From: Oscillospiraceae bacterium
Lineage (GTDB): Bacteria; Bacillota; Clostridia; Oscillospirales; Ruminococcaceae
Assembly: GCA_017848155.1 (NCBI GenBank)
Contig: JAGAKC010000386.1
Span: 1-16,959, forward strand
DNA length: 16,959 nucleotides
Reading direction: 5' to 3'
How positions within the stretch are numbered: the stretch's first letter is position 1; every line of letters starts with the position of its first letter. Below are positions 4,230-14,890 of the stretch, piece after piece. A model generated the notes under the pieces. The model searched no databases, had not been told where the DNA came from, and saw nothing but the letters and a program-made list of their open reading frames with translations. The position numbers were made by a program, and so were the translations under genes.

Positions 4230-4766
4230 TCAGCTGTCCGCAGATACGGGAGTATTCTTCGCAGCATCGGAGCTTATCAACGATACTGCAGGCGGAGGAT
4301 CGAACTCTACCGTAAGCGTCACACGGTAATGCATACCGTACATCGTTACGTCCGCCGTGGCGCGTCTGCCGCGCCTGTTGTATTTTACGATCTTGTGTTC
4401 CAGCGCCCTCAGGAATCCCTCGGTAATATGAAGAGCGCCGTCTTTAATGTAGCCTCTGGATATTCCGATGCACTCTCCGCTGTTGCAGAGGGTACGGATG
4501 TACTCCTCCTCGGTATCGGACAGCTGCGATCGGCTCACGAAGCGGATAGCTCCGATACAGCTCTTAGCTGTGTAGTAGAGATCCGCTGTAAGTTCCGTGC
4601 GGTCGATGAATACATATCCGTCGAAAAGTGTGTCCTCACGGCTGCACCACATTCCACGCCTGCGCTCGGTCACGAGCTTTTTCGGGGAATAAGCGGTAAT
4701 GCCCTCTTGTCGAAGCTGCTCCACAACATATGCTTCTCTGCCGCACTGACAGTAAAGAACGAACAT
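4230..4766 (-). CDS. NusG-paralogue transcription antitermination factor (LoaP-like)
   Basis: The 178-residue protein has an N-terminal NGN-type domain (about residues 1-98). It begins with the FVLYCQCGREAYVVEQL pattern of NusG proteins and carries the LFDGYVFID segment (47-55), equivalent to the PGYVFV hallmark. A KOW-like region follows (about 115-155: ITEGFLRALEHKIVKYNRR, then RRATADVTMYG). NusG paralogues bind RNA polymerase and make it processive; LoaP in Firmicutes acts on specific long operons through an RNA hairpin. Placement inside the late operon, ahead of packaging and head genes, suggests a phage-dedicated antiterminator. The ATG overlaps the preceding stop (TGATG) with AGGAGG 7-8 nt upstream. 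Specificity for the phage transcript is inference. Confidence 0.85.
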   Translation of the reverse strand: MFVLYCQCGREAYVVEQLRQEGITAYSPKKLVTERRRGMWCSREDTLFDGYVFIDRTELTADLYYTAKSCIGAIRFVSRSQLSDTEEEYIRTLCNSGECIGISRGYIKDGALHITEGFLRALEHKIVKYNRRGRRATADVTMYGMHYRVTLTVEFDPPPAVSLISSDAAKNTPVSADS

Positions 4767-5644: not shown

Positions 5645-5953
5645 TTATCCCCTCCTCATATCGTCCAGCTTGGTCTCGAGCCTTGTCATAGTCCGCACAA
5701 AGTCATTGCTGCGGACTGTGTTCTCTTTCAGAAAGTCGATATTGGATTCCATCTTTTCGATGGATTTCTTAAGCTCATCAAGCTCCGACTTGCTCGCATA
5801 CTTGTCGTCGGCACGGTCGAGCTTCGCCTGAAGCTCCTGCACCTGCTGCTTTGACGCGCAGCTGTTCAGCTTATCAAAAAAATGCTTCAGAAAGAAGCCG
5901 ATAACGCCCATTCCACCTGTTAATATCCAGTTGTATACTGCGTCAAAATCCAT
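5645..5953 (-). CDS. Mu gp25-like membrane-anchored coiled-coil protein (DUF2730-type)
   Basis: The 102-residue protein has one hydrophobic N-terminal segment (about residues 7-24: YNWILTGGMGVIGFFLKH), then a long charged heptad region (about 35-100) that should be a coiled coil. This layout, and the position as first gene of the late operon ahead of gp26- and gp27-like genes, fits Mu gp25/DUF2730 proteins, whose function is unknown. A haemolysin XhlA-like or holin-accessory role is an alternative because that family has a similar length but usually the opposite topology. The ATG at 5953 is preceded by AAAGGGGTGACGGT, and the late promoter lies about 30 bp upstream of it. Confidence 0.65.
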   Translation of the reverse strand: MDFDAVYNWILTGGMGVIGFFLKHFFDKLNSCASKQQVQELQAKLDRADDKYASKSELDELKKSIEKMESNIDFLKENTVRSNDFVRTMTRLETKLDDMRRG

Positions 5954-5985
5954 ACCGTCACCCCTTTGATGTTTCCTTTAACAGG

Positions 5986-6028
5986 ATTATACTATTAAAA
6001 TGTATTTTTGTAAAAAGTCGATTTACAA
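5986..6028 (-). promoter_or_regulatory. Late-operon promoter with overlapping dyad (candidate Mor target)
   Basis: On the minus strand, TTTACA (6014-6009) and TATAAT (5991-5986) are separated by 17 bp. A 7-bp dyad, TTGTAAA (6008-6014) and TTTACAA (6022-6028) with a 7-bp spacer, covers the -35 and extends upstream. Its centre lies near -39 relative to the expected start. Mu Mor and C activators bind dyads just upstream of or over the -35 of their promoters. The mor-like gene is immediately upstream, so this is the natural candidate for a Mor-type site. The promoter could also work without an activator, because its -35 matches five of six consensus bases. Confidence 0.65.
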
Positions 6029-6118: not shown

Positions 6119-6385
6119 CTATGTTTTAGATAGCCTGCGCACGTCAGCAAGAGGAAGCTCAAGATCGCGTGCGATCTGCTCAAGAGTATCTCCGTTCTGA
6201 CGGCGGCAGCGGATGTGATGCGTGATCTCTGAAATGGGCACAAGAGATTTTGCTTTTGGGATCCACAGCTGAGATCCGCCATATTCATCCATCAGCGCCC
6301 TATAGTTGTCTATTCCGATAACATCGACTACTGCCTGCTGTTCTTCATTAAGGTGGCGCAGCTCCACCAGATCCGACATTGCCAT
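6119..6385 (-). CDS. mor: Mor-like transcription activator of the late operon
   Basis: The 88-residue protein matches the Mor/C activator family of Mu-like phages. It has a dimerisation-type segment with VIGIDNYRALMDEYGGSQLWIPK (family pattern G-x-x-x-Y-x-x-L-x-x-x-Y-G-G-x-x-x-x-I-P), then a C-terminal helix-turn-helix (about residues 62-88, RRQNGDTLEQIARDLELP). Mor normally switches on the middle promoter, which leads to late genes. Here it is the last early gene and a dyad-bearing promoter follows. The start is the ATG at 6385, with AAAAGGAGTG 6 nt upstream; the in-frame GTG at 6394 lies inside that ribosome binding site. It overlaps the end of the gemA-like gene by 38 bp. Confidence 0.85.
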   Translation of the reverse strand: MAMSDLVELRHLNEEQQAVVDVIGIDNYRALMDEYGGSQLWIPKAKSLVPISEITHHIRCRRQNGDTLEQIARDLELPLADVRRLSKT

Positions 6386-6845
6386 TTTTGTCACTCCTTT
6401 TCTTGCGCTGCTCGGTAGTAATATACCGCTTCAGTGTTTCGATGATATTGCGCCCATCCTCGGCACTGCACCCTGCGAATATTCCGCCGTTCGTGCGCAC
6501 CTTTCTTCCTGTCGCATTTGCAATGACTCCTGCAAGTCTGTCACGCACGGACACTGACGACGGGGATATCTCGGCAAGCTGATACATCAGGTGGAAGGAA
6601 AGGTTCTTCTGCGCCTCGGACATCCTGGTCGCCGCTTTCAGGTCTTTGAGATGCTTTGAGTAGTCCTTCAGACGTTCAATGATAAAATCAGCCTGCTCGT
6701 CGGACAGATCGGAGATATGCTCCTTATCGGGCGCATACTGTCTTATCCACAGGTGCAGATCATCTTCAATGCCGCGTGAGCTGTCCAGCAGCTCACAGAT
6801 CGCACCCAGCGCATAAATCTTCTTTTTCTGTTCCTTAGTTGCCAT
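6348..6845 (-). CDS. gemA: GemA-like protein (Mu gp16, DUF1018-type)
   Basis: This 165-residue protein has the GemA start pattern, M-A-T-x-E-Q-K-K-K-I-Y-A-L-G, then an acidic helical region with HISDLSDEQADFIIERLK, and a basic C-terminal part. It sits immediately before the mor-like gene as in Mu. GemA/gp16 proteins are described as modulators of host DNA supercoiling or gene expression; the biochemical role is not firmly known. The gene starts at ATG 6845, overlapping the TGA region of the preceding gene and preceded by the weak GGTGAACTGAC. The last 20 residues are polar and glycine-rich (DKNGNVGSGGAAPP) and probably disordered. Confidence 0.8.
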   Translation of the reverse strand: MATKEQKKKIYALGAICELLDSSRGIEDDLHLWIRQYAPDKEHISDLSDEQADFIIERLKDYSKHLKDLKAATRMSEAQKNLSFHLMYQLAEISPSSVSVRDRLAGVIANATGRKVRTNGGIFAGCSAEDGRNIIETLKRYITTEQRKKRSDKNGNVGSGGAAPP

Positions 6846-6846
6846 G

Positions 6847-7491
6847 TCAGTTCACCGCTATCTTTGTGGAGCTGCTCACTGATACGCCAAGGTTGATGCT
6901 GTGCAGGAGCTTAGCCTTGTCTGCACCGGTCATCTCGGCAATGCGGCAGAATGTCTGCCATACCACCGCCTCCGCATACAGATATGCATAATCGCTGGCT
7001 TCCTCCTGCGAAAAACCGCCTATCTCCATAAGACTATCCCTGTCCTTTTCAAAGGTGATACCTTTCAGCTTACGTGTAAGAGCCGCTTTTTTGCTCTCGT
7101 CGCAGGGAAGCTGCCCGATCACCTCCGAGGGCAGCATCTGTACATAGCCGCCCGTGTAGATGCCTATCAGCATACGCTCAATATTCTTGTTGACAGGGGA
7201 GATGGTGACAGACTTTTTCTCCTCAAACAGATCAGGAAATACCTCTCCAAGACTGTCCCGAAGATAGTTCGGTGCGTCGATGGAGAGCGACTGTGCTTCA
7301 GTGTATGTAACAGCCGCCTGACTGTTGGGATCCACATATGTAGCGGATTTGTACTTGGTATCGGCTACATTCTCGCCACCGAGCTTCAGAAAGAACGCTT
7401 CCAGCTTCTTCTTATCTTCATTGAGCGCAGCGATCTTAGCCTTGATATCGGCGAGCTGCCTGACTTTTTCGATGATGCCGGTGTTATCCAT
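6847..7491 (-). CDS. Unknown early phage protein with N-terminal coiled coil
   Basis: I do not recognise a named family. The 214 residues begin with a heptad-rich helix (about residues 5-42: VRQLADIKAKIAALNEDKKK). A basic and aromatic patch with KYKSATYVDP follows, then a helical C-terminal half containing GGFSQEEASDYAYLYAEAV. The ATG at 7491 has GGAGG 9 nt upstream and overlaps the end of the AbrB-like gene by 8 bp, which rules out the longer open frame from 7548. Position before gemA and mor recalls the early semi-essential region of Mu, which includes the Gam DNA-end-protecting protein. No Gam motif was seen, so I do not assign that role. Confidence 0.6.
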   Translation of the reverse strand: MDNTGIIEKVRQLADIKAKIAALNEDKKKLEAFFLKLGGENVADTKYKSATYVDPNSQAAVTYTEAQSLSIDAPNYLRDSLGEVFPDLFEEKKSVTISPVNKNIERMLIGIYTGGYVQMLPSEVIGQLPCDESKKAALTRKLKGITFEKDRDSLMEIGGFSQEEASDYAYLYAEAVVWQTFCRIAEMTGADKAKLLHSINLGVSVSSSTKIAVN

Positions 7492-7735
7492 TGCCGCACA
7501 CCTCCCTGTACAGCTCTGTAGCGCACAGCGGGCAGAGCATGATATCACGGTAGTGTTTTACATTCTCGGCACCGCCGCAGAAGCGGCAAGTGGGAGCATG
7601 TCGGCGGATGATCAGATCGCCGTTCTTGGCAGCTGTAAGATCGACCGCTGTTCCGGGAGCAAGATCCAGATGCGCCGCCATATCCTTAGGGATAGAGATG
7701 CTGCGTGCCTTGCTAAGTTTTTTGTACTTGATCAT
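7484..7735 (-). CDS. AbrB/MazE-like DNA-binding protein with zinc knuckle
   Basis: The 83-residue protein joins a SpoVT-AbrB swapped-hairpin domain to a CxxC...CxxC zinc knuckle. The N-terminal pattern is K-L-S-K-A-R-S-I-S-I-P-K-D, about residues 6-18, continuing to G-D-L-I-I-R-R at 45-51. The cysteine pairs are FCGG about residues 57-60 and LCPLC about 71-75. AbrB domains are dimeric DNA-binding folds found in transition-state regulators and antitoxins. No toxin partner is adjacent, so a phage regulator is more likely than an antitoxin. The ATG at 7735 has AGGAGG 6 nt upstream; longer open frames upstream run through the repeated RNA-like element and are rejected. Confidence 0.75.
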   Translation of the reverse strand: MIKYKKLSKARSISIPKDMAAHLDLAPGTAVDLTAAKNGDLIIRRHAPTCRFCGGAENVKHYRDIMLCPLCATELYREVCGNG

Positions 7736-7757
7736 AATATTCCTCCTATATAGTATT

Positions 7758-7833
7758 CCCACTCTGCGTTTGCACGGGCTTGTGACCGTTCTCCTGTTGA
7801 GAGCCGCATTAGGACGGGCGCAGGAGCACCCGT
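7758..7833 (-). ncRNA. Candidate structured RNA element, copy B
   Basis: This is the second copy of a 75-nt intergenic element also found at 10560-10634. On the minus-strand RNA it starts with the hairpin ACGGGUGC-UCCU-GCGCCCGU (7833-7814). A block almost identical to copy A follows, with CCUAAUGCGGCUCU, GGAGAACGGUCACAAGCC and AACGCAGAGUGGG. It ends 22 nt before the ATG of the AbrB-like gene and begins 8 nt after the ASCH gene stop. The hairpin keeps pairing relative to copy A by a U-G wobble while the loop changes completely, which points to RNA structure. It may be a leader or a small RNA; no matching Rfam family could be named. Confidence 0.5.
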
Positions 7834-7841
7834 ATAGTTTA

Positions 7842-8138
7842 TTACGCCCTTCGCAGTGCAAGAGCGACATACCCCGGCGACAGAAACTGCCTGTCGTCCA
7901 GGATATATGTGATCTCGAACAGCAGATGCCTGCCCGAATAGCTGCCGTTTGTTGCACTGCGAGAAAAAGGCTTATCTCCGCTGGGAGGTGCATAAGGATC
8001 CTCGTCAGGTCGGAACTCGTTCAGTGCGACCAGATCGCCGACCCGAAAATCTCTGTCGTTTTTACGTATCTCAAAGGTCTTTTTGCCCAAGATCAAAGCA
8101 TCAAAGTATTCAGGGTGGCATTTCAGTTCATGTATCAT
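7842..8138 (-). CDS. DUF3850/ASCH-domain protein
   Basis: This 98-residue protein carries the DUF3850 pattern: HELKCHPEYFDALILGKKTF, EIRKNDRDFRVGDLVAL and a late YILDD then GYVALAL strand. ASCH/PUA-like domains bind RNA or modified nucleotides, and DUF3850 proteins are common small phage genes of unproven function. An insertion rich in D, P, S and G (about residues 43-68) separates the two halves. The ATG overlaps the preceding stop as ATGA, with GAAAGGA 8 nt upstream. The next region downstream is the repeated RNA-like element. Confidence 0.85.
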   Translation of the reverse strand: MIHELKCHPEYFDALILGKKTFEIRKNDRDFRVGDLVALNEFRPDEDPYAPPSGDKPFSRSATNGSYSGRHLLFEITYILDDRQFLSPGYVALALRRA

Positions 8139-8311
8139 TGATTTTTTCCTTTCAACTTCTTACCTTTACAACAGCAAATATCCTCAAACTGTGGCATGAT
8201 GATCCTGCCGTCGACACTGCAATATAATATCTTACCTATGCGCTTTGATTTAGGACATTCCGCACAGGGTGGATACTTCTGTTTCTGTTCGGCTTTTTCC
8301 AGTGGTGTCAA
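8135..8311 (-). CDS. Small Cys-rich (zinc-binding) phage protein
   Basis: The protein is about 58 residues long, with CAECP near the centre and a C-terminal C-C-C cluster (DICCCKGKK) that could bind zinc, and a lysine-rich tail. I chose the TTG at 8311 because AGGAGG lies 8 nt upstream of it. The in-frame ATG codons at 8338 and 8332 have no ribosome binding site and would place that Shine-Dalgarno inside the gene. It overlaps the ASCH gene by 4 bp (ATGA), so the pair is probably co-translated. No family was recognised. Confidence 0.6.
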   Translation of the reverse strand: MTPLEKAEQKQKYPPCAECPKSKRIGKILYCSVDGRIIMPQFEDICCCKGKKLKGKNQ

Positions 8312-8373
8312 CCATCCCACCTCCTGCTGCATATCCATAGGACTATCGGAAATTTCAGTTCATGTACCAAAAA

Positions 8374-9072
8374 TTAATCCTCCACACGGTATTCTGTATT
8401 GTAATACAAAGCATCATAACCCTGGTCGAATTTTATAACCGCACGGCTGATCTGCATATGAAACAACTTGCGCACAAAACAATCAGCATCAGCAAGCTCT
8501 TCACCAAAGCAACAGAATTTTCCTGTTTTTACGCTGCATATTTCGCCCTTGTAAACATATATTCGGATTGCGCATTCATGAGCTTGCTTATCAGACAACT
8601 CATCAAAGTAGACGAAATAGCCGCCATAACTGCCTTCCTTGATTATGAGAGTGATACTTTCACCATCACCATAATGCTCATCGGCATGATAATCTATATA
8701 CTCGCCGATAAGTTCAGATAAAGTATACTCTGTTTTGGACTCTCTGGTGAGCATAGCAGTAAGCATATCCTTAAAGCTCTCAACGCCATGTTCTTTCACA
8801 AAAGTGTCAGTCAATTCCTCTGCTGTTTTAAGCAGATATGCGTTATATAGCGGCACATCAATTTTGCTAAAATCAACTGACAGCTTTTCTTTGATAGCCT
8901 CTTTAAAGCTATTTGCAAAGCTGCTATTCCAATTAAGCTGTTGTTTTATAATATTGGATATTGTATCTTCAAGCGTACTCTTTATCTTCTCCTCAATAAT
9001 TCCGCTAGAAACAATATCTTCCATTGCCTTTTGGGCAATTTCGCTCAGGTTGATAGTGGTCTTATCACTCAT
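8374..9072 (-). CDS. Unknown AT-rich phage protein
   Basis: The 232-residue protein has a helical acidic N-terminal half, with NLSEIAQKAMEDIVSSG then a long helix to about residue 90. A compact beta-rich C-terminal half follows: YGGYFVYFDELSD, ECAIRIYVYKGEI, KTGKFCCFGEEL. No named family was recognised. The ATG at 9072 has GGAG 6 nt upstream and overlaps the stop of the preceding broken gene (ATGAGTGA). Codon use is visibly more AT-rich than in the flanking replication genes, suggesting later acquisition. It sits between the helicase loader region and the zinc protein, the usual place for phage accessory genes. Confidence 0.6.
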   Translation of the reverse strand: MSDKTTINLSEIAQKAMEDIVSSGIIEEKIKSTLEDTISNIIKQQLNWNSSFANSFKEAIKEKLSVDFSKIDVPLYNAYLLKTAEELTDTFVKEHGVESFKDMLTAMLTRESKTEYTLSELIGEYIDYHADEHYGDGESITLIIKEGSYGGYFVYFDELSDKQAHECAIRIYVYKGEICSVKTGKFCCFGEELADADCFVRKLFHMQISRAVIKFDQGYDALYYNTEYRVED

Positions 9073-9262
9073 TGGCATCTCCAAACCTTTCTGCATACTT
9101 TCTCTCCGCTCTGTTCAGCTTCTGCTTTAGCTTCTTAAGCTCCTTACTGACCTCGTTGCGGCGTATCCTTGCGCTTGTGATCCTGTCCTTAAGGTATTAG
9201 ATCCTGTTCAGTGCCTCCCTCTGCTCGGAGGGAGGGTCGATGTTGTTCTTAACGATAAACAT
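9065..9262 (-). pseudogene. Small basic coiled-coil gene interrupted by an in-frame TAA
   Basis: From the ATG at 9262 (AAAGGAG, 6 nt spacing) the frame reads 21 codons, MFIVKNNIDPPSEQREALNR-I, then TAA at 9199-9197. It then continues open for 43 codons of well-formed helical coding sequence (YLKDRITSARIRRNEVSKEL, then a Lys/Arg-rich heptad) to a TGA that overlaps the next gene start. No good start codon or ribosome binding site follows the TAA. This looks like a single-base nonsense change in a roughly 64-residue phage gene. Sequencing error or stop readthrough are alternatives. No function was recognised. Confidence 0.6.
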
Positions 9263-9274
9263 ATTGTACTCCTT

Positions 9275-10111
9275 TCAATCTTCATTCAACAGCCTGTTCA
9301 TTGCTTCAAAGCCGCTCCATGCACCTCGTTTTCTTCGTGATATACCTCGAAACTCAACAGGGTAACAGCGTTCAAGCACTCTGTCATATATCCGCTGGTA
9401 ACGAATATCAACAGGATGCTTCAGCTCCTCAAGGGATAGATTAGTAGTATAGATCACAGGCTTATTGCTTCGATAACGCCCATCTACGATACTGTATACT
9501 CGCTCCAGTGCGTAATCCGTTGATCGTTCCGCACCCAGATCATCCAGTATCAGCAGGTCAATGCTGTTCAGGCGAGATAAAACATCATTTGTTCCTGATT
9601 CGATCAGCGTGACCAGGGAAGTCATTATAACGCTGCGTCCCTGTGACAGCAGTGCATTTGCGATGCAAGCAGCAGAATAGGTCTTACCCGTTCCGACATC
9701 GCCGAACAAAAGCAGTCCTCGCCCATCGGAGAGCATTGCACCGAATTTCTCCGCAAATCTTCTGCATTTAACGAAGCTGTCACGATTGTCCCCGTCACGA
9801 TCCGCATTCTCAAAGGTACAGTTTTCAAGTGACTGCCCCATAAGTGAAAATCCCCGAAGCTCCGTTGACCGCATCTGTGTAAGGATCATCTCATTACGAT
9901 GACGTTCCTCATCATCAGCGCGTATCATACACTCGCACCACACAGGAACTATGAGCTCCTCACCGCCGATATCGATACGGCTGCGCTTGGCAGTATGGCA
10001 TTGTCCACAGTACAGGAGTCCGGCTTCGGTGTAATCTCCCTCCAGTGGAGGATTTGTGCTCTCATGAGCTTTTGCCAGTGCTTTTACAAATCCAACACCG
10101 TCAACGCCCAT
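9275..10111 (-). CDS. dnaC: DnaC/IstB-like replicative helicase loader (AAA+)
   Basis: With the ATG at 10111 the protein is 278 residues. An N-terminal zinc module has C35, C38 (YCGQC) and C59, C61 (WCEC). The AAA+ core follows: Walker A GDVGTGKT (137-144), Walker B LLILDD (186-191), and a sensor-like YTTNLS segment. This is the phage DnaC family that loads the host DnaB-type helicase. The start is uncertain: the ATG at 10132 is also possible and neither has a clean Shine-Dalgarno. Both overlap the preceding DnaD-like gene, implying translational coupling. Upstream DnaD-like and MuA/MuB genes suggest it brings the replisome to transposition forks. Confidence 0.88.
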   Translation of the reverse strand: MGVDGVGFVKALAKAHESTNPPLEGDYTEAGLLYCGQCHTAKRSRIDIGGEELIVPVWCECMIRADDEERHRNEMILTQMRSTELRGFSLMGQSLENCTFENADRDGDNRDSFVKCRRFAEKFGAMLSDGRGLLLFGDVGTGKTYSAACIANALLSQGRSVIMTSLVTLIESGTNDVLSRLNSIDLLILDDLGAERSTDYALERVYSIVDGRYRSNKPVIYTTNLSLEELKHPVDIRYQRIYDRVLERCYPVEFRGISRRKRGAWSGFEAMNRLLNED

Positions 10112-10532
10112 ATTCCGCAAACGGATTGCCATGCATCGCAGGTGCTGATGGCGCTGTCTGCGATGGAGTGAAATTTCCTTCTGCAACCTTAATAAGATTA
10201 TCAGGCTGCATGATCCAATCGAACGATGCCTTCCATTGGTGGTCGTTTTTGCCGCACAGAAACGGACTGGCGGCAGCTGTGCGAAACACATCATCCATGT
10301 TGTATCCATCCTTCAGTGCACGTGCGATAGCTCTTCGGCGTTTGTTGGTGAGCTTTGTAGCAGGCGGCATTGCCGAGCATATCATGTTATAGCTGTCAAG
10401 CACCGCTCTGTAATTGATATTCGGCGGATCTTTAAGCTCTTTTAAAAACGCTTTAAGCTCTGCAAATTGTGAGGGAGTCAGATCATGTTCAGTAGCATGA
10501 TCGTGTTTGACGTCGTAGATCCTGATCTTCAT
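10101..10532 (-). CDS. DnaD-like phage replication (primosome) protein
   Basis: This 143-residue protein shows the C-terminal pattern seen in phage replisome organisers: LDSYNMICSAMPPATKLTNK, R-R-R-A-I-A-R-A-L-K-D-G-Y, then HQWKASFDWIMQPDNLIKVAEGN (shown here by its W-K-A-S-F-D-W core). A Ser/Pro/Ala-rich tail follows. Such proteins bind DNA and recruit the helicase-loader pair. The ATG at 10532 has AAAGGAGG about 8 nt upstream and is preceded by copy A of the repeated element. The gene overlaps the DnaC-like start. The classical N-terminal DnaD winged helix is not present, so this is a short form. Confidence 0.75.
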   Translation of the reverse strand: MKIRIYDVKHDHATEHDLTPSQFAELKAFLKELKDPPNINYRAVLDSYNMICSAMPPATKLTNKRRRAIARALKDGYNMDDVFRTAAASPFLCGKNDHQWKASFDWIMQPDNLIKVAEGNFTPSQTAPSAPAMHGNPFAEYGR

Positions 10533-10559
10533 GCAATCGCTCCTCCTTTCTGTCAAAAT

Positions 10560-10634
10560 CCCACTCTGCGTTCACACGGGCTTGTGACCGTTCTCCTGTC
10601 AGAGAGCCGCATTAGGACGGGCGCTGATGCGCCC
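10560..10634 (-). ncRNA. Candidate structured RNA element, copy A
   Basis: The minus-strand RNA starts with the hairpin GGGCGC-AUCA-GCGCCC (10634-10619), directly after the stop of the HTH/zinc gene. It continues through a block about 94% identical to copy B at 7758-7833: CCUAAUGCGGCUCU, then CAGGAGAACGGUCACAAGCC, then AACGCAGAGUGGG. It ends 27 nt before the ATG of the DnaD-like gene. Differences between copies include a one-base length change that breaks any shared short reading frame, which argues for RNA or DNA function rather than a conserved leader peptide. No U-run follows the hairpin, so it is not a plain terminator. Confidence 0.5.
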
Positions 10635-10641
10635 TTTAAGA

Positions 10642-10908
10642 TCAGCCGCTGAAGCTGTTAATGAAATCGACCACTGCTCCGCATGCAGCGCAGAGATTGA
10701 TGTCGGTACCGTCGGGCATCTCATATGCGGCAGCATACTTCAGCGGTGTGTTTCTGCGGCAGCATTCACAGGGAATGAAATCATGCTCTCGTATCTTATC
10801 CACAACATCCTGTGTACGCTTGTGCAGCCTGCGTGCGATCTCCTCGTGTCCCACACCCTGACCCTTGAGATAGCGCAGCTGCTCCTCCTCAAAAAATGTC
10901 CATGCCAT
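10642..10908 (-). CDS. Small HTH plus zinc-binding protein
   Basis: The 88-residue protein has an N-terminal helical DNA-binding-like segment (residues 1-41, with EEQLRYLKGQGVGHEEIARR resembling a SANT/Myb or sigma-like HTH). A CECC...CAAC cysteine set follows (about residues 47-50 and 73-76) that could hold zinc. No named family was recognised. The ATG at 10908 has AGGAGG 9 nt upstream and follows the membrane-protein gene by one base. A regulator of early transcription is plausible but not shown. Confidence 0.65.
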   Translation of the reverse strand: MAWTFFEEEQLRYLKGQGVGHEEIARRLHKRTQDVVDKIREHDFIPCECCRRNTPLKYAAAYEMPDGTDINLCAACGAVVDFINSFSG

Positions 10909-11194: not shown

Positions 11195-11355
11195 TTTAGC
11201 CATTCCTTTCTGATAACCCTTTTTGATCCCGTAATTCTGTGGGTAAGCTCCAGAGTATCGGTCGTGTCCTTGCAGACGAGCCATTTCAGCGGCTGCAGAC
11301 CTGCTGCCTTGATCAGCAGCATCTGCTTCCTGGTGGGATTTTTGCCATGCTTCAT
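11191..11355 (-). CDS. DUF6906-like small phage protein
   Basis: A 54-residue gene starts at ATG 11355 and ends at TGA 11193-11191. The sequence matches the DUF6906 pattern: MKHGKNPTRKQMLLIKAAGL, then Q-P-L-K-W-L-V-x-K-D-T, then H-R-x-T-G-x-x-R-V-I-R-K. This family is widespread in Firmicutes phages and has no known function; its basic charge suggests nucleic-acid or protein binding. It overlaps the mu-B-like stop (ATGA) upstream and the membrane-protein start (ATGA) downstream, so it lies in a tightly coupled chain. Confidence 0.8.
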   Translation of the reverse strand: MKHGKNPTRKQMLLIKAAGLQPLKWLVCKDTTDTLELTHRITGSKRVIRKEWLK

Positions 11356-12314
11356 CTCTTCACCGCCTTATCCGCCCCCTTCAGATCGAGCCTCATTATC
11401 TTAGCCATGCTGATAAGACCGTTCCAGCTGTAGTCGCCTGCATCAAAAGCATTGCCGAAAAGCCTTACAGCGCCACGAACACCCTCGTGTGTCTGTGCGA
11501 TCTTATGCAGGAGCGCAAGCTCGTTCTCCTGCCCCTGGAGGAGAGGGAACAGCATCTTGATATCATCAAGTTTGGTATCTGTTGTGGACAGCCTGTGGCG
11601 CTGCCACGCACGGTTGTTGACCTGACGGTACTGCTCACGGCTCCTGCCCTCGATCTTCTCACGTATGCCCTCGTTGCCTATAAGAGCCACGCCCATGGTC
11701 TGACCACGCTCGGCGAAGAAGTCGGTGAAAGCACGGAGCGTTTCGATGCTGCCATAGGTCAGCAGCTGCGCTTCATCGACCACGATGACCATGCCATCGT
11801 GGAGCTTAGCGGCAATGGACATCCATAGATCATCTCTGGATTGGGATATCGTAAGTCCCAGCTCCAGTGCAAGCAGCTTGAGCACCGCTTTAGTGGATTT
11901 AAGGCAAGGGTTGATGGTGATCATTATACTGCTCTGCGGATGATCTGCTATGTAGCGGCGTATAGCCTTTGTTTTACCTACGCCTGCGTCACCTGTCACG
12001 ATCGCAAAGCCGCCTTTCAGCTGGACATTGCGGATAGTTTTATACACAAGAGTGCTGGTCGAGGTGGGTGCATAATCCACCTCGGAATAGTTCTCCGCAG
12101 CTGCGTCCTTGTTTTCGAAGTAGACGATCAGCTTGTTGAACTGCTTCTCCGTATCGCCCTCATACTTGCCTGATCTCAGCTGTGAAACTATAGCGGAAGA
12201 TACTCCGCATATCTCTCCTGCACGTTTTGCGGAGGGAGTGCCTTTGTAGGCATTGGCAGCGGCAAGCTCGTCGAACTTCTCCAGCGCCCATTTCTGTTTT
12301 TCTGTTAATGACAT
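11352..12314 (-). CDS. MuB-like AAA ATPase (transposition target capture)
   Basis: The 320-residue protein (Mu B is 312) has an N-terminal HTH (about residues 28-52: KRAGEICGVSSAIVSQLRSG), then the AAA core with Walker A GDAGVGKT (108-115) and Walker B VIVVDEAQLL (D180-E181). A helical C-terminal part follows, like the MuB C-domain. MuB binds target DNA in an ATP-dependent way and delivers it to the transposase while giving target immunity. I chose the ATG at 12314 with AAAGGA 6-7 nt upstream; the ATG at 12329 overlaps the transposase stop but has only a weak site. Directly downstream of the MuA-like gene, as in Mu. Confidence 0.93.
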   Translation of the reverse strand: MSLTEKQKWALEKFDELAAANAYKGTPSAKRAGEICGVSSAIVSQLRSGKYEGDTEKQFNKLIVYFENKDAAAENYSEVDYAPTSTSTLVYKTIRNVQLKGGFAIVTGDAGVGKTKAIRRYIADHPQSSIMITINPCLKSTKAVLKLLALELGLTISQSRDDLWMSIAAKLHDGMVIVVDEAQLLTYGSIETLRAFTDFFAERGQTMGVALIGNEGIREKIEGRSREQYRQVNNRAWQRHRLSTTDTKLDDIKMLFPLLQGQENELALLHKIAQTHEGVRGAVRLFGNAFDAGDYSWNGLISMAKIMRLDLKGADKAVKR

Positions 12315-12325
12315 AATATATCCTT

Positions 12326-14311
12326 TCATTTTCTGCCTTCGACGGCAGCATTCATCCTTTCCAATATAATGGAGATCTCTGTAATACTTGTAAGCTCGGG
12401 ATGCTCTTCCATCTGCTCTTCGGAGAACACGGGAGTAAATTTTGCAGGCTTGACGATGTTGAAATCCCGTCTGCCCTCAATACCCTTGCGCACCATTGAA
12501 GCGAATATGTCGATCTGCTTGTCGGGGTCTACTGCGTCAAGTATTCCTTGTGCAAACTGCTTGATCACACGCTTGTTCTCACGGATGACCTTTTCTGCAT
12601 CCGCAATATCCTCGTTATTCGCAGTGAGATAATCCACCATCAGATCATCGGCAAGCTGCCATGTCCACAGATACTTATCGTCTGACATGCTGTATATTCG
12701 CACTGCTGTCGGATCCGCAGGGTCATAGCGCACATACACCTGCTCTCCGATGTGGAGTATGGTCTCCTTGCCGTAGTACCACAGCTTTTCGCCTGCGATC
12801 CGTACAAATACTCCGTTTCTGCTGATCTTCTGCGGTCTGGACACACGCTTCAGAAGCATGTCCAGATTACGAGCGTCAGCCATGCGGAACTCTCTGTTGC
12901 GTATGCTTGCATTCCATACATCGATCCTGCGCTTACCTTTTAGCCGCTGCTCCTTGCCGCCGTATGGCGCTACATTATAATCGCCGTCAATAAAGATGTC
13001 CAGCGCTGTTTTGATCTCAAGATCGGTAGGTATCCTGCCGTGCTTCAGGATCCATTTCAGTGATTCCTTCTGCTCGACAACGGTACCACCGCAGAACGTT
13101 TCTATTGCCCTCGAAAAATGGTTTTTAAAGGTGCAGAAAGTCCTTTCGATTGGCTTAGCCTTTGCATTGCGGACGATGGCATTATGCATCTCCACACCGA
13201 GAAGGTCCAGTATAGTCGGCGGTAGCGGATCCTTGTTCCAGTCCTTTTTCTTTCTGTGTCCTCGTCCGCCGATATCCGACACCAGGAACTCCGAACCATT
13301 GTCCACGTAGATAGATCTCGGTACTCCGCAGCGAAGTATCCCGTGCCTTAGCGCAAGCAGCGTGCTGTCCGATGACGGATTCTCTGTCAGATTCCAGCCG
13401 ACCATCATGCCTGATTTCGCATCGGTAAACGCAGTAAGATACAGACGATGTGGCTTGCCGTTCTCACCCTGCGTGAAGAAGTCGAACGTATGGTTATCTG
13501 CGATCCAGACATCGTTCGCCTCAAGATCATCGTATAATCGCTCTATGTAGGGCAGACAGTGATCGGCAAAAGCCTTATCACCCTTGCGCATGTACATGAC
13601 CACCGCAAACGGCAGTGACTCTGCTTTTCGGCGGAACGTCCGCTCCGACGGGATCTCCGCAGCTGCTTCAGGGTACCATTCGCGCACCCAGACCTTAAGC
13701 AGTTCGTAGCAGCGGCTGATCGGAAGCTCGTTGTCATGGAGATAGAAGCTGTAAAATGCGTCCAGCATATATTGCGGAATACATGTCTTACCCTTGTTGT
13801 GTCCGCCTCGGTGGTCGATAAGTCCGCCGATATCTCCGTTTTTGTATGCCTTGTACTTGCGGTACAGGATGTCAGGGGAGATGTTGATCTCCGGATATCT
13901 TAGCTTGACAGCGGCGCAATACAGCTCGTCATACTTGCATTTTCCGCCGAGCTTCTCCGCTCCGCCTTCACGGGCAGCCTGCCACTCTGCCATGATCCTG
14001 CACCATAACGCTGCATCATTACGTTGCTCTCCCGTCAAGTCCTGCAGCGTGATCTGCCGCGGATCAGGCTTCGGCACAGGCTTAGCAGGTACGGGCACAG
14101 GCTCTAGACCTAACTTGTTGCGCTGCTGATTCTCCCAGCGGAGCTGCAGCTTTTCAGGCAAGTCTGATATTGCGATTGCATATTCAGTACGGTTGTTGGC
14201 AGCACTCTCTTTTACAGAGGCTCTGATTTTTCCGTCTTTAATACACTTTTGCACATACTGTATGCTACAACATTTAAGCTCCGCAACCTGCGCAGTTGTA
14301 AGAAAATTCAA
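12326..14311 (-). CDS. MuA-like DDE transposase
   Basis: With the TTG start at 14311 (AAAGGAG, 7 nt spacing) the protein is 661 residues, next to 663 for MuA. An N-terminal MerR/excisionase-like HTH begins FLTTAQVAELKCCS (about 3-16), followed by a Pro-rich linker (71-84), HTH regions to about 230, and the RNase H-like core. Catalytic residues fit D272 (VWIADNH), D337 (IYVDNGSEF) and E389 (KPIERTF), close to MuA D269, D336 and E392. A Mu-type C-terminal beta-barrel and tail follow (about 480 on), the region that in MuA contacts MuB. It catalyses strand transfer for integration and replicative transposition. A longer frame to 14395 lacks a ribosome binding site. Confidence 0.96.
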   Translation of the reverse strand: MNFLTTAQVAELKCCSIQYVQKCIKDGKIRASVKESAANNRTEYAIAISDLPEKLQLRWENQQRNKLGLEPVPVPAKPVPKPDPRQITLQDLTGEQRNDAALWCRIMAEWQAAREGGAEKLGGKCKYDELYCAAVKLRYPEINISPDILYRKYKAYKNGDIGGLIDHRGGHNKGKTCIPQYMLDAFYSFYLHDNELPISRCYELLKVWVREWYPEAAAEIPSERTFRRKAESLPFAVVMYMRKGDKAFADHCLPYIERLYDDLEANDVWIADNHTFDFFTQGENGKPHRLYLTAFTDAKSGMMVGWNLTENPSSDSTLLALRHGILRCGVPRSIYVDNGSEFLVSDIGGRGHRKKKDWNKDPLPPTILDLLGVEMHNAIVRNAKAKPIERTFCTFKNHFSRAIETFCGGTVVEQKESLKWILKHGRIPTDLEIKTALDIFIDGDYNVAPYGGKEQRLKGKRRIDVWNASIRNREFRMADARNLDMLLKRVSRPQKISRNGVFVRIAGEKLWYYGKETILHIGEQVYVRYDPADPTAVRIYSMSDDKYLWTWQLADDLMVDYLTANNEDIADAEKVIRENKRVIKQFAQGILDAVDPDKQIDIFASMVRKGIEGRRDFNIVKPAKFTPVFSEEQMEEHPELTSITEISIILERMNAAVEGRK

Positions 14312-14333
14312 ATCTATTCTCCTTTCTGTAAAA

Positions 14334-14349
14334 ATTTGTCTTGACAAAT
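14334..14349. promoter_or_regulatory. Perfect 7-bp dyad just upstream of the transposase gene
   Basis: ATTTGTC (14334-14340) and GACAAAT (14343-14349) form a perfect dyad with a 2-bp centre, 22 bp before the TTG start and just ahead of the Shine-Dalgarno. It may be an operator controlling transposase level or, in RNA, a stem that would not mask the ribosome binding site. Binding factor unknown. Confidence 0.55.
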
Positions 14350-14356
14350 AGCCATT

Positions 14357-14382
14357 GGCTCTGATATACTTTAATCGGAGCC
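14357..14382. repeat. 9-bp imperfect stem-loop at the 3' end of a small early gene
   Basis: GGCTCTGAT (14357-14365) pairs with ATCGGAGCC (14374-14382) with one wobble on the plus-strand RNA and one mismatch on the minus-strand RNA, around an 8-nt loop. It spans the stop of the 65-residue gene. No T-run follows on the minus strand, so termination is unlikely to be strong; attenuation ahead of the transposase is possible. Confidence 0.45.
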
Positions 14383-14568
14383 TTCCAGTTCGCATTCCAG
14401 TGCGTCCTGTATGTCGTGCAGAAGCGATTGAGCTGTGGCAATTAGCTGTCGCTTCTGCAGGGGCTCTATTTTTTGTGCCTCTCGGTCATCCTTGAGGAGC
14501 AAATAGAGCTCGTCAAACCATGCTACCACATGGTCAAGGGATCTCTCCCTGAACTCGATGACGGTCAT
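14371..14568 (-). CDS. Small acidic helical early protein, unknown
   Basis: The 65-residue product is almost wholly helical and acidic (MTVIEFRERSLDHVVAWFDE, then KIEPLQKRQLIATAQSLL, ending LECELEGSD). It could be a small regulator or an adaptor, but no family was recognised. The ATG at 14568 is preceded by AAAGGCGGTGAAACA, an acceptable ribosome binding site. It is the last gene before the transposase and is separated from it by 59 bp holding two dyads. Confidence 0.6.
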   Translation of the reverse strand: MTVIEFRERSLDHVVAWFDELYLLLKDDREAQKIEPLQKRQLIATAQSLLHDIQDALECELEGSD

Positions 14569-14625
14569 TGTTTCACCGCCTTTCCTGACCTGCCATCATC
14601 AGCGCAGGGTGGTCATTCCCTGCGG

Positions 14626-14656
14626 ACAGGCAGCCACCTATACAGTGGTTGCCTGT
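14626..14656. repeat. 12-bp near-perfect inverted repeat over a plus-strand promoter
   Basis: ACAGGCAGCCAC (14626-14637) and GTGGTTGCCTGT (14645-14656) pair with one G-T step around a 7-bp loop. The right arm contains the -35 of the promoter at 14649-14677. It reads naturally as an operator; as RNA it could also be a weak terminator stem. The symmetry is too long to ignore. Confidence 0.65.
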
Positions 14657-14677
14657 TTCGGCATTTTGTGGTATAAT
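14649..14677 (+). promoter_or_regulatory. Strong plus-strand promoter for the counter-oriented small gene
   Basis: TTGCCT (14649-14654), a 17-bp spacer and TATAAT (14672-14677), with TGG before the -10 giving an extended -10 (TGGTATAAT). Transcription would start near 14684, only about 18 nt before the ATG at 14702, leaving just the ribosome binding site as leader. Confidence 0.8.
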
Positions 14678-14701
14678 TATTTCTCGAAGGGGGGTATAAA
14701 A

Positions 14702-14890
14702 ATGAGATTACCCAATGATTATGTTGAGAAAATTTTCAACGATTTACAGGTGGCTGGTCTATCCTGTTCCGAAGAAATTAAAAAAATCGCCATTATTACT
14801 TCGTATAGTGTCTTGTTAGAATATCACCAAGTGTTAAGAGAAGAACTTTTAAAGTCTGGGATAGACATCGGTATCCTCGGTCGTGAATAA
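14702..14890 (+). CDS. Counter-oriented 62-residue gene, unknown (possible moron or lysogeny gene)
   Basis: A 62-residue protein (MRLPNDYVEKIFNDLQVAGL, then SEEIKKIAIITSYSVLLEYH and a short Ile-rich end) is encoded on the plus strand, against the whole early operon. The start has AAGGGGGG about 7 nt upstream and its own near-consensus extended -10 promoter, so it is likely expressed from the prophage when the early operon is silent. It is AT-rich compared with its neighbours. It ends base-to-base with the stop of the 216-residue gene on the other strand. It looks helical and soluble; no family was recognised. Phage-conversion (moron) or lysogeny-support roles are inference. Confidence 0.7.
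   Translation: MRLPNDYVEKIFNDLQVAGLSCSEEIKKIAIITSYSVLLEYHQVLREELLKSGIDIGILGRE

Follow-up and report, generated by a model that had tools for sequence, protein, structure and literature searches.

Two type-P1 twister ribozymes between gene blocks of a Mu-like prophage operon, and their predicted role in cutting its early RNA

The DNA stretch analysed here (the window) is the whole of contig JAGAKC010000386.1, 16,959 nucleotides (nt) long and one of the 498 contigs of an Oscillospiraceae genome (assembly GCA_017848155.1, G000 in the genome set, 76.9% complete). Its minus-strand genes represent the early part of a Mu-like prophage, through the Mu Gp27-like gene and the terminase, according to the Pfam and PHROG annotations. 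Two similar intergenic blocks of this operon matched the type-P1 twister ribozyme family of Rfam (RF03160), each with a hairpin directly on its 5' side, and a third ribozyme, a type II hammerhead that had not figured in the first-pass annotation of this DNA, was found on the same strand. The window was compared with all Rfam families, and the E values given here apply within the window; two other matches were weak (E 0.35 and 1.9). The elements under study were:

10558..10618, minus strand: twister A (RF03160, 56.2 bits, E 1.7e-10, model positions 1-68; predicted cut 10614 (U) / 10613 (A))
7756..7815, minus strand: twister B (RF03160, 56.7 bits, E 1.2e-10, whole 68-position model; predicted cut 7811 (U) / 7810 (A))
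10619..10634, minus strand: hairpin abutting the 5' side of twister A (6 base pairs (bp), loop AUCA, gap 0; RNAfold -11.9 kcal/mol, 0 of 200 shuffles as good)
7816..7831, minus strand: hairpin abutting the 5' side of twister B (6 bp with one G-U, loop UCCU; RNAfold -10.7 kcal/mol, 0 of 200 shuffles as good)
14584..14663, minus strand: type II hammerhead ribozyme before the operon (RF02276, 42.0 bits, gathering score 37; predicted cut after GUC, 14625/14624)

Identity of the ribozymes

By sequence match, fold and covariation, the two repeated blocks are type-P1 twister ribozymes. The repeat reported in the first-pass annotation was real, with ribozyme bodies of 61 and 60 nt that differ by four mismatches and a single gap of 1 nt (identity in 56 of 61 columns, 92%), and its placement was also confirmed: both copies lie on the minus strand, after a stop codon, with 25 (A) and 20 nt (B) between the last ribozyme base and the next start codon. 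The proposal of a conserved, structured, cis-acting RNA before the DnaD-like and AbrB-like genes was upheld, including the expected compensatory signal in the ribozyme stems, pseudoknot and hairpin, while the undefined leader or small RNA that had been suggested gave way to a known self-cleaving class. As had been noted, no shared reading frame runs through the element, and since the middle loop (P3) also varies in length between relatives, a leader peptide was rejected. Each copy reached an E value of about 1e-10 in the window and no RF03160 match was obtained in 14 control genomes, so the repeat is more than a chance similarity.

Stems P1, P2 and P4 are present in both copies in the P1-open order, as in the published type-P1 structure, which has P1, P2, P4, an optional P3, the pseudoknots T1 and T2 and a U-A cleavage step (PMC5408937). 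Pseudoknot T1 (loop L4 with L1) pairs C-A-C with G-U-G in both copies, and the RNAfold minimum-energy structure contains the 5' hairpin, P1, P2, P3 and P4 in both. Folding energy was weaker evidence, with 2 of 200 shuffles (copy A) and 17 of 200 (copy B), hairpin included, folding as well as the natural sequence. Because shuffles can fold as well, the twister case rests on the family match and on covariation.

Two sets of copies were used for the latter. The first comprised 37 copies from 23 genomes (24 copies from the genus set of 43 genomes, which includes the window's own, and 13 from ten other genomes of the family). The second was collected with an exact DNA pattern that left one T1 base and its partner free, and comprised 113 viral-contig and 56 genome-contig stretches in 153 distinct contexts, from which 148 broader copies were retained; the titles of the 56 genome contigs were mostly Clostridia or unnamed, and at least 11 named other phyla. 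A covariance model built from the 37 copies gave 101 matches in 80 loci and 109 in 89 loci (both at E 0.001), and 38 in the 28 training-set loci (E 0.01); these matches were used solely to note further copies, such as the two twisters of L143, a locus from an isolate record.

In the 37-copy alignment, both pseudoknots included, 95.7% of 622 cells paired, compared with 79.1% in shuffles and 15.9-43.4% when the partners were slid by one to three columns, and double-change cells numbered 113 against 30.5 in shuffles. T1 was 99.1% paired with two covarying pairs (C-G 17, U-A 14 and G-C 5 at one; A-U 19, G-C 16 and C-G 2 at another), and T2 (GC of L2 with L4) was 100% paired, as GC/GC or AC/GU. The U-A cleavage step adjoining P1 read UAA in all 37 copies, and its U was present in 142 of the 148 broader copies. 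In the second set, the free T1 pair was Watson-Crick in 151 of 153 distinct contexts (79.6 expected), with all four pair types present. Both window copies have A-U at this pair, where the Rfam twister-P1 consensus has C-G; A-U, U-A or G-C was frequent among the copies collected here.

Type II hammerheads are recognised by GAAAC, CUGAUGA, a GUC cleavage triplet, closed stems I and III and an open stem II, all of which were found in the alignment of the window's element; its cut site was read from this alignment by hand. The hammerhead is the only one of its type found in the genome, and 15 nt separate its end from the operon's first gene. A promoter-like site and a small plus-strand frame (14649-14890) point away from it and overlap its 5' end.

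Gene content and recurrence of the layout

The prophage was assigned to the Mu-like transposable phages from its Mu-transpos_C, AAA_22, GemA, Gp27 and Mor-like matches, the last below the Pfam cut-off. Twister A lies between an 88-amino-acid (88-aa) gene and the DnaD-like gene, and twister B between the DUF3850 and AbrB-like genes. The genes concerned, in the direction of transcription, were:

14371..14568, minus strand: first gene following the hammerhead, small (65 aa) and without a family; homologues in loci L217 and L241 (cluster c21)
12326..14395, minus strand: MuA-like transposase (Pfam Mu-transpos_C and HTH_Tnp_Mu_2 over cut-off; rve and DDE_2 below cut-off)
11352..12329, minus strand: MuB-like ATPase (Pfam AAA_22; located after MuA; 10 of 43 genus genomes have a strong homologue)
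10642..10908, minus strand: 88-aa gene, whose stop codon precedes twister A
10101..10532, minus strand: DnaD-like, replication-initiation-like gene after twister A (PHROG 10469, 345 and 19658; no Pfam match)
9275..10165, minus strand: DnaC-like helicase loader, an IstB-type ATPase (PHROG 50, E 5.9e-57; PF01695)
7842..8138, minus strand: DUF3850/ASCH gene, whose stop codon precedes twister B (PF12961, E 4.7e-24)
7484..7735, minus strand: AbrB/MazE-like gene after twister B (PF04014; PHROG 4681)
6348..6845, minus strand: GemA-like gene (PF06252, 27.0 bits, at its cut-off)
6119..6394, minus strand: Mor-like late transcription activator (PHROG 836; PF08765 22.2 bits, below its cut-off of 24.9)

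The same order recurred in relatives: hammerhead, MuA/MuB, twister, a few genes (usually with the DnaC-like loader), twister, GemA/Mor. Thirteen of the 43 genus genomes possessed twisters (24 copies), and 11 of them had exactly two. Ten of these 11 pairs were on one contig and strand, 1.5-2.8 kilobases (kb) apart, the window's pair (2.8 kb) being wider than the other nine. All ten genus genomes with a close MuB (E <1e-90) had two twisters, those of G035 on two contigs; G006 and G028 gave distant MuB-like matches only and are outside this group of ten. The hammerhead, twister and twister were found on one contig in six genus genomes (G000, G007, G014, G020, G026 and G029), and also in G038 with a weak hammerhead (30.5 bits).

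Twelve further genus genomes, of 42 searched, possessed copies. In 11 of them the neighbouring genes on both sides fall into clusters with genes of this prophage, and in one (G021) those on the upstream side only. The first-pass annotation had also raised the possibility of a mobile intergenic element, as suggested by two similar copies between unrelated genes. The window's own genome, at 76.9% completeness, holds these two copies only, both in this operon, and the copies of relatives recur at the same operon positions, beside the same gene clusters and on one strand, which leaves a mobile repeat a negligible chance.

The Rfam search covered 17 of the 28 loci in the 37-copy set (the window and 16 of 27 fetched stretches). 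All 50 twister and hammerhead matches in these loci were on one strand (one twister per locus being so by construction). The hammerhead preceded MuA in 15 of the 16 loci with MuA (one of them weak), every twister followed MuA, and twisters preceded GemA in all 14 loci where GemA was recognised. Among 142 broader loci, which are not all independent as some are the same prophage from two collections, MuB was found in 38, always on the twister's strand and upstream in 37, and GemA (16/16), Mor (15/15), Gp27 (25/25) and AbrB (24/24) were downstream of the twister on its strand wherever found.

The copies were also placed between genes. In the 37-copy set, 36 had the stop of a frame of at least 50 codons within 200 nt upstream and 33 a start with a Shine-Dalgarno-like sequence within 60 nt downstream. 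With slightly different criteria, both a flanking stop and a flanking start were found for 76 of 125 broader copies (23 of the 148 rows, near an end or duplicate, were dropped) compared with 10.4% of 740 random positions. Three loci of other family members (L235, L236 and L237) had a single good twister behind MuB, with GemA following directly or after a few genes, and L231 had three hammerheads and two twisters. As read from these layouts, the regular feature is the predicted cut behind the transposition genes; the place of the second varies, as do ribozyme class and number.

Some copies departed from the common twister form. A short version without P3, with T2 changed to AC/GU, was present in L221, L222 and L227, the last combining the short version at site A with a longer version at site B, as would be expected if single sites are replaced. 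In L235 a weak second twister (5943-6006; 27.4 bits with the Rfam model, 28.1 bits with the 37-copy model) lies just upstream of the good one and is perhaps a decaying duplicate. Within the window, the 240-aa gene at 8374-9096 (minus strand), between both twisters, had no Pfam match and no homologue among the other clustered loci, and positions 7700-10700 had no match among GenBank phage records. A phage-borne NusG-like protein is encoded at 4230-4766 (minus strand; PF02357, 39.7 bits), and a NusG-like gene was downstream of the twister on the same strand in 20 of the 20 loci where it was found; it may possibly act as an antiterminator for a long late RNA.

The hairpin next to P1

The GC hairpin described in the first-pass annotation is an extra stem immediately 5' of each ribozyme, abutting P1. 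As claimed there, the two hairpins differ mainly in the loop and one pair is kept by a C-G to U-G change; RNAfold draws the hairpin in both. A 5' stem of at least 5 bp within 2 nt of P1 was present in 33 of the 37 copies (10% of shuffles, 13.5% of random positions), and in 91 of the 148 broader copies (controls 9.9% and 13.5%), the latter with 61 different 5' arms. We take this hairpin to be the P0 of the twister literature. According to a review, stem P0 occurs in 21% of twisters (PMC6154101), a lower proportion than the 33 of 37 observed here. An intrinsic terminator was rejected, as no T run follows either hairpin and the terminator scan lists no site there.

The hairpin was linked to the presence of a gene end upstream. 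In the 125 broader copies with enough flank, a stop codon was found within 150 nt upstream of 69 of the 77 copies with the hairpin, compared with 28 of the 48 without it (p = 1e-4), and the link persisted when one copy was drawn per cluster of similar upstream DNA (104 clusters; median p = 3e-4 over 200 draws). This bears on a simpler account, compatible with the cuts proposed below, in which the hairpin only helps the ribozyme to fold, by keeping upstream RNA away from P1, and serves no purpose once cleavage has occurred. A fold can be insulated by a 5' stem, and a stem of at least 4 bp touches P1 without a gap in 30 of the 37 copies; a folding aid should not depend on a gene ending upstream, yet the hairpin does, although stray copies lacking both features could add to the link. 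A pure folding aid was judged somewhat unlikely, if the strongest of the alternatives.

Neither the fixed position of a twister after MuB nor the link between hairpin and upstream stop was found described in the limited literature searched.

Predicted cuts in the early RNA

The reading we favour, with a rough probability of 0.78, is that the twisters cut the polycistronic early RNA of the Mu-like prophage between gene blocks, with the hammerhead adding a cut in the leader, to give separate mRNAs. The two twisters would cut at two places and the hammerhead before the transposase genes. Three mRNAs are predicted to result: one of about 4.0 kb for transposition (A/B; 14624-10614), one of 2.8 kb with the helicase-loader genes (10613-7811), and one further downstream whose 5' end lies ahead of the AbrB-like, GemA-like and Mor-like genes. 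Each twister cut would leave the GC hairpin, five bases (the P1 strand) and a 2',3'-cyclic phosphate at the 3' end of the upstream mRNA. The mRNA on the other side of the cut would have a 5'-OH and keep the remainder of the ribozyme as a folded leader, with 20-25 nt from there to the start codon. A hairpin (stem III) would likewise form the end of the upstream product of the type II hammerhead, so hammerhead and twister would leave the same kind of 3' end. Self-cleavage would occur during transcription, by analogy with the hammerhead clusters of prophage transcripts, which cleave during transcription in vitro, one triple arrangement also doing so in Escherichia coli (PMC3088659). The benefit would likely be separate amounts and lifetimes for the gene blocks. 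From the match, fold, covariation, strand, position and recurrence described above, we infer that the RNA would be cleaved in the cell and that separate, protected mRNAs would be of advantage to the phage.

Published clusters of hammerhead, twister and RAGATH ribozymes in Mu-like prophages show the same Mu-like genes and neighbouring ribozymes of several classes (PMC10085705, PMC3088659). Enrichment of hammerheads and twisters close to Mu-like phage genes, and close to one another, has been reported without a known reason (PMC10085705), and hammerheads flank gene blocks in prophages, with processing or circle formation suggested (PMC3088659). What the present loci show beyond those clusters, as described in the papers searched, is a recurring order, one predicted cut after MuA/MuB, and a 5' hairpin linked to upstream genes. 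The theta ribozymes of gut phages, resembling that of hepatitis delta virus, are likewise self-cleaving with a proposed processing role; many of them occur with tRNAs, whose 3' trailers they have been suggested to process, whereas the twisters here lie between protein genes (PMC10879173).

Cleavage could instead lower expression by destabilising the downstream or upstream mRNA, the ribozymes being fixed negative regulators. Self-cleavage does remove the natural 5' end of the downstream RNA, and the glmS ribozyme works by cleavage followed by decay (reviewed in PMC6154101). However, cleavage would leave a stable hairpin close to the new 3' end, and this hairpin is more frequent where there is a gene end upstream; both points agree better with protection than with decay, and down-regulation was considered unlikely.

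In another alternative, the twister pair would free the middle (helicase-loader) RNA, which an RNA ligase or the ribozyme body acting in reverse would close into a circular mRNA. Two cuts would indeed give 5'-OH and cyclic-phosphate ends, and such ends are joined by RtcB. In the window's own pair, 4 of 4 positions at the 3' end of the middle RNA can find partners in the P1 strand of twister A, and over 14 two-copy genomes the mean cross-pairing (2.79) was above that of any two copies (2.20). One of these pairs (G159) was taken from two contigs, each with its own MuA/MuB, and probably represents two prophages. This cross-pairing is not conserved, however, the mean of 2.79 of 4 comparing with 3.54 within a copy, and it falls to one pair in G025 and G026 and to two in G007, G014, G028 and G035; self-circularisation as a general purpose was rejected on this ground. 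Moreover, RtcB was not found in four of the 13 twister genomes, including the window's own (77% complete) and G007 (92%). Circles had been proposed for clustered hammerheads, though the account of that work reports that its authors did not detect them (PMC3088659), and a circular mRNA appears very improbable here. RtcB was found in 18 of the 43 genus genomes, in nine of the 13 with twisters and nine of the 30 without (Fisher p = 0.023; post hoc and uncorrected for genome size or kinship), a difference that was not relied upon.

Several findings weigh against cuts between gene blocks, beginning with the ribozymes themselves. Twister A (56.2 bits) and twister B (56.7 bits) score below the RF03160 gathering score of 67.2, a limit set by the database rather than a structural trait, and so do all 37 copies scored with the Rfam model; no match of at least 67.2 bits was obtained in the 43 genus genomes or in 297 genomes drawn from the family. 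The outermost P1 pair of copy B is G-A, leaving three of four P1 pairs. Copies related by descent inflate the covariation counts, and as four of the 153 pattern matches were unparsable and one was cut by a contig end (148 remaining), a few may be chance. The best RNAfold structure of the hammerhead has stems I and III and not stem II, with part of CUGAUGA paired to downstream bases, which makes the activity of this hammerhead less certain. The low scores could denote inactive remnants, or leaders that bind without cleavage; the core elements are intact and their pairing is held by compensatory change, where remnants would decay, and this explanation is hardly credible.

Other such points concern the layout. 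L222 has MuA and no hammerhead match at E 0.5, and a Mu-type gene was detected by tblastn with the window proteins in only 41 of the 142 broader loci, which places many twisters in short loci or outside the relatives that can be detected. Of the 148 broader copies, 75 fall inside some 100-codon open frame on either strand (1173 of 1480 for random 60-mers). The DnaC-like gene was between the twisters in seven of the ten same-contig genus pairs, after twister B in two (L218 and L219) and not recognised in one (L217); with loader genes behind twister B, L218 and L219 show that the second border varies. The hairpin is likewise not universal: two of the 37 copies (G021 and copy A of G029) have no 4-bp 5' hairpin and 57 of the 148 broader copies no 5-bp one. 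Its link with an upstream stop was present only in loci without a Mu match (with and without a stop, 36/5 for copies with the hairpin vs 21/20 for those without) and not in Mu loci (33/3 vs 7/0), which cannot show it because nearly all have the stop. Finally, 13 promoter-like sites were found in the operon compared with 10.5 in shuffles, so that one long RNA is an assumption, as the operon may have internal promoters, and cleavage and transcript processing in this prophage are themselves predictions.

A broader proposal is tentative, and we give it somewhat less than even odds: in Mu-like phages, mostly of Clostridia, interchangeable ribozyme classes may serve as mRNA end-formers that cut between gene blocks, one regularly after MuA/MuB, with a hairpin near the new upstream 3' end (hammerhead stem III or the twister 5' hairpin) selected because a gene ends upstream. 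If true, this would give phage self-cleaving ribozymes a purpose, namely the making of protected 3' ends and of uniform leaders with a 5'-OH, with neither terminator nor RNase needed. Thousands of bacterial and phage ribozymes are known, and the literature calls their purpose unknown or speculative (PMC10085705, PMC5408937, PMC6155905). The ribozyme class reported here is already known; its regular layout makes the purpose testable, with a placement regular enough to test a definite role, that of early-operon cuts between gene blocks, together with a 3'-end hairpin linked to an upstream gene. Annotation that uses the Rfam twister-P1 cut-off will not list this twister group.

Ribozyme content was more varied in some related operons. 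Of the 17 loci scanned, six (L230, L231, L232, L234, L235 and L240) had a RAGATH-28 RNA above cut-off on the downstream side of the twister, with a weak match in L233 and none in the window. The type II hammerhead, whose fold differs from that of the twister, occurs in the window only before the transposase genes, whereas L232 (genome G050) has six of them, together with one twister and one RAGATH-28 RNA, all on one strand of a single Mu-like operon.

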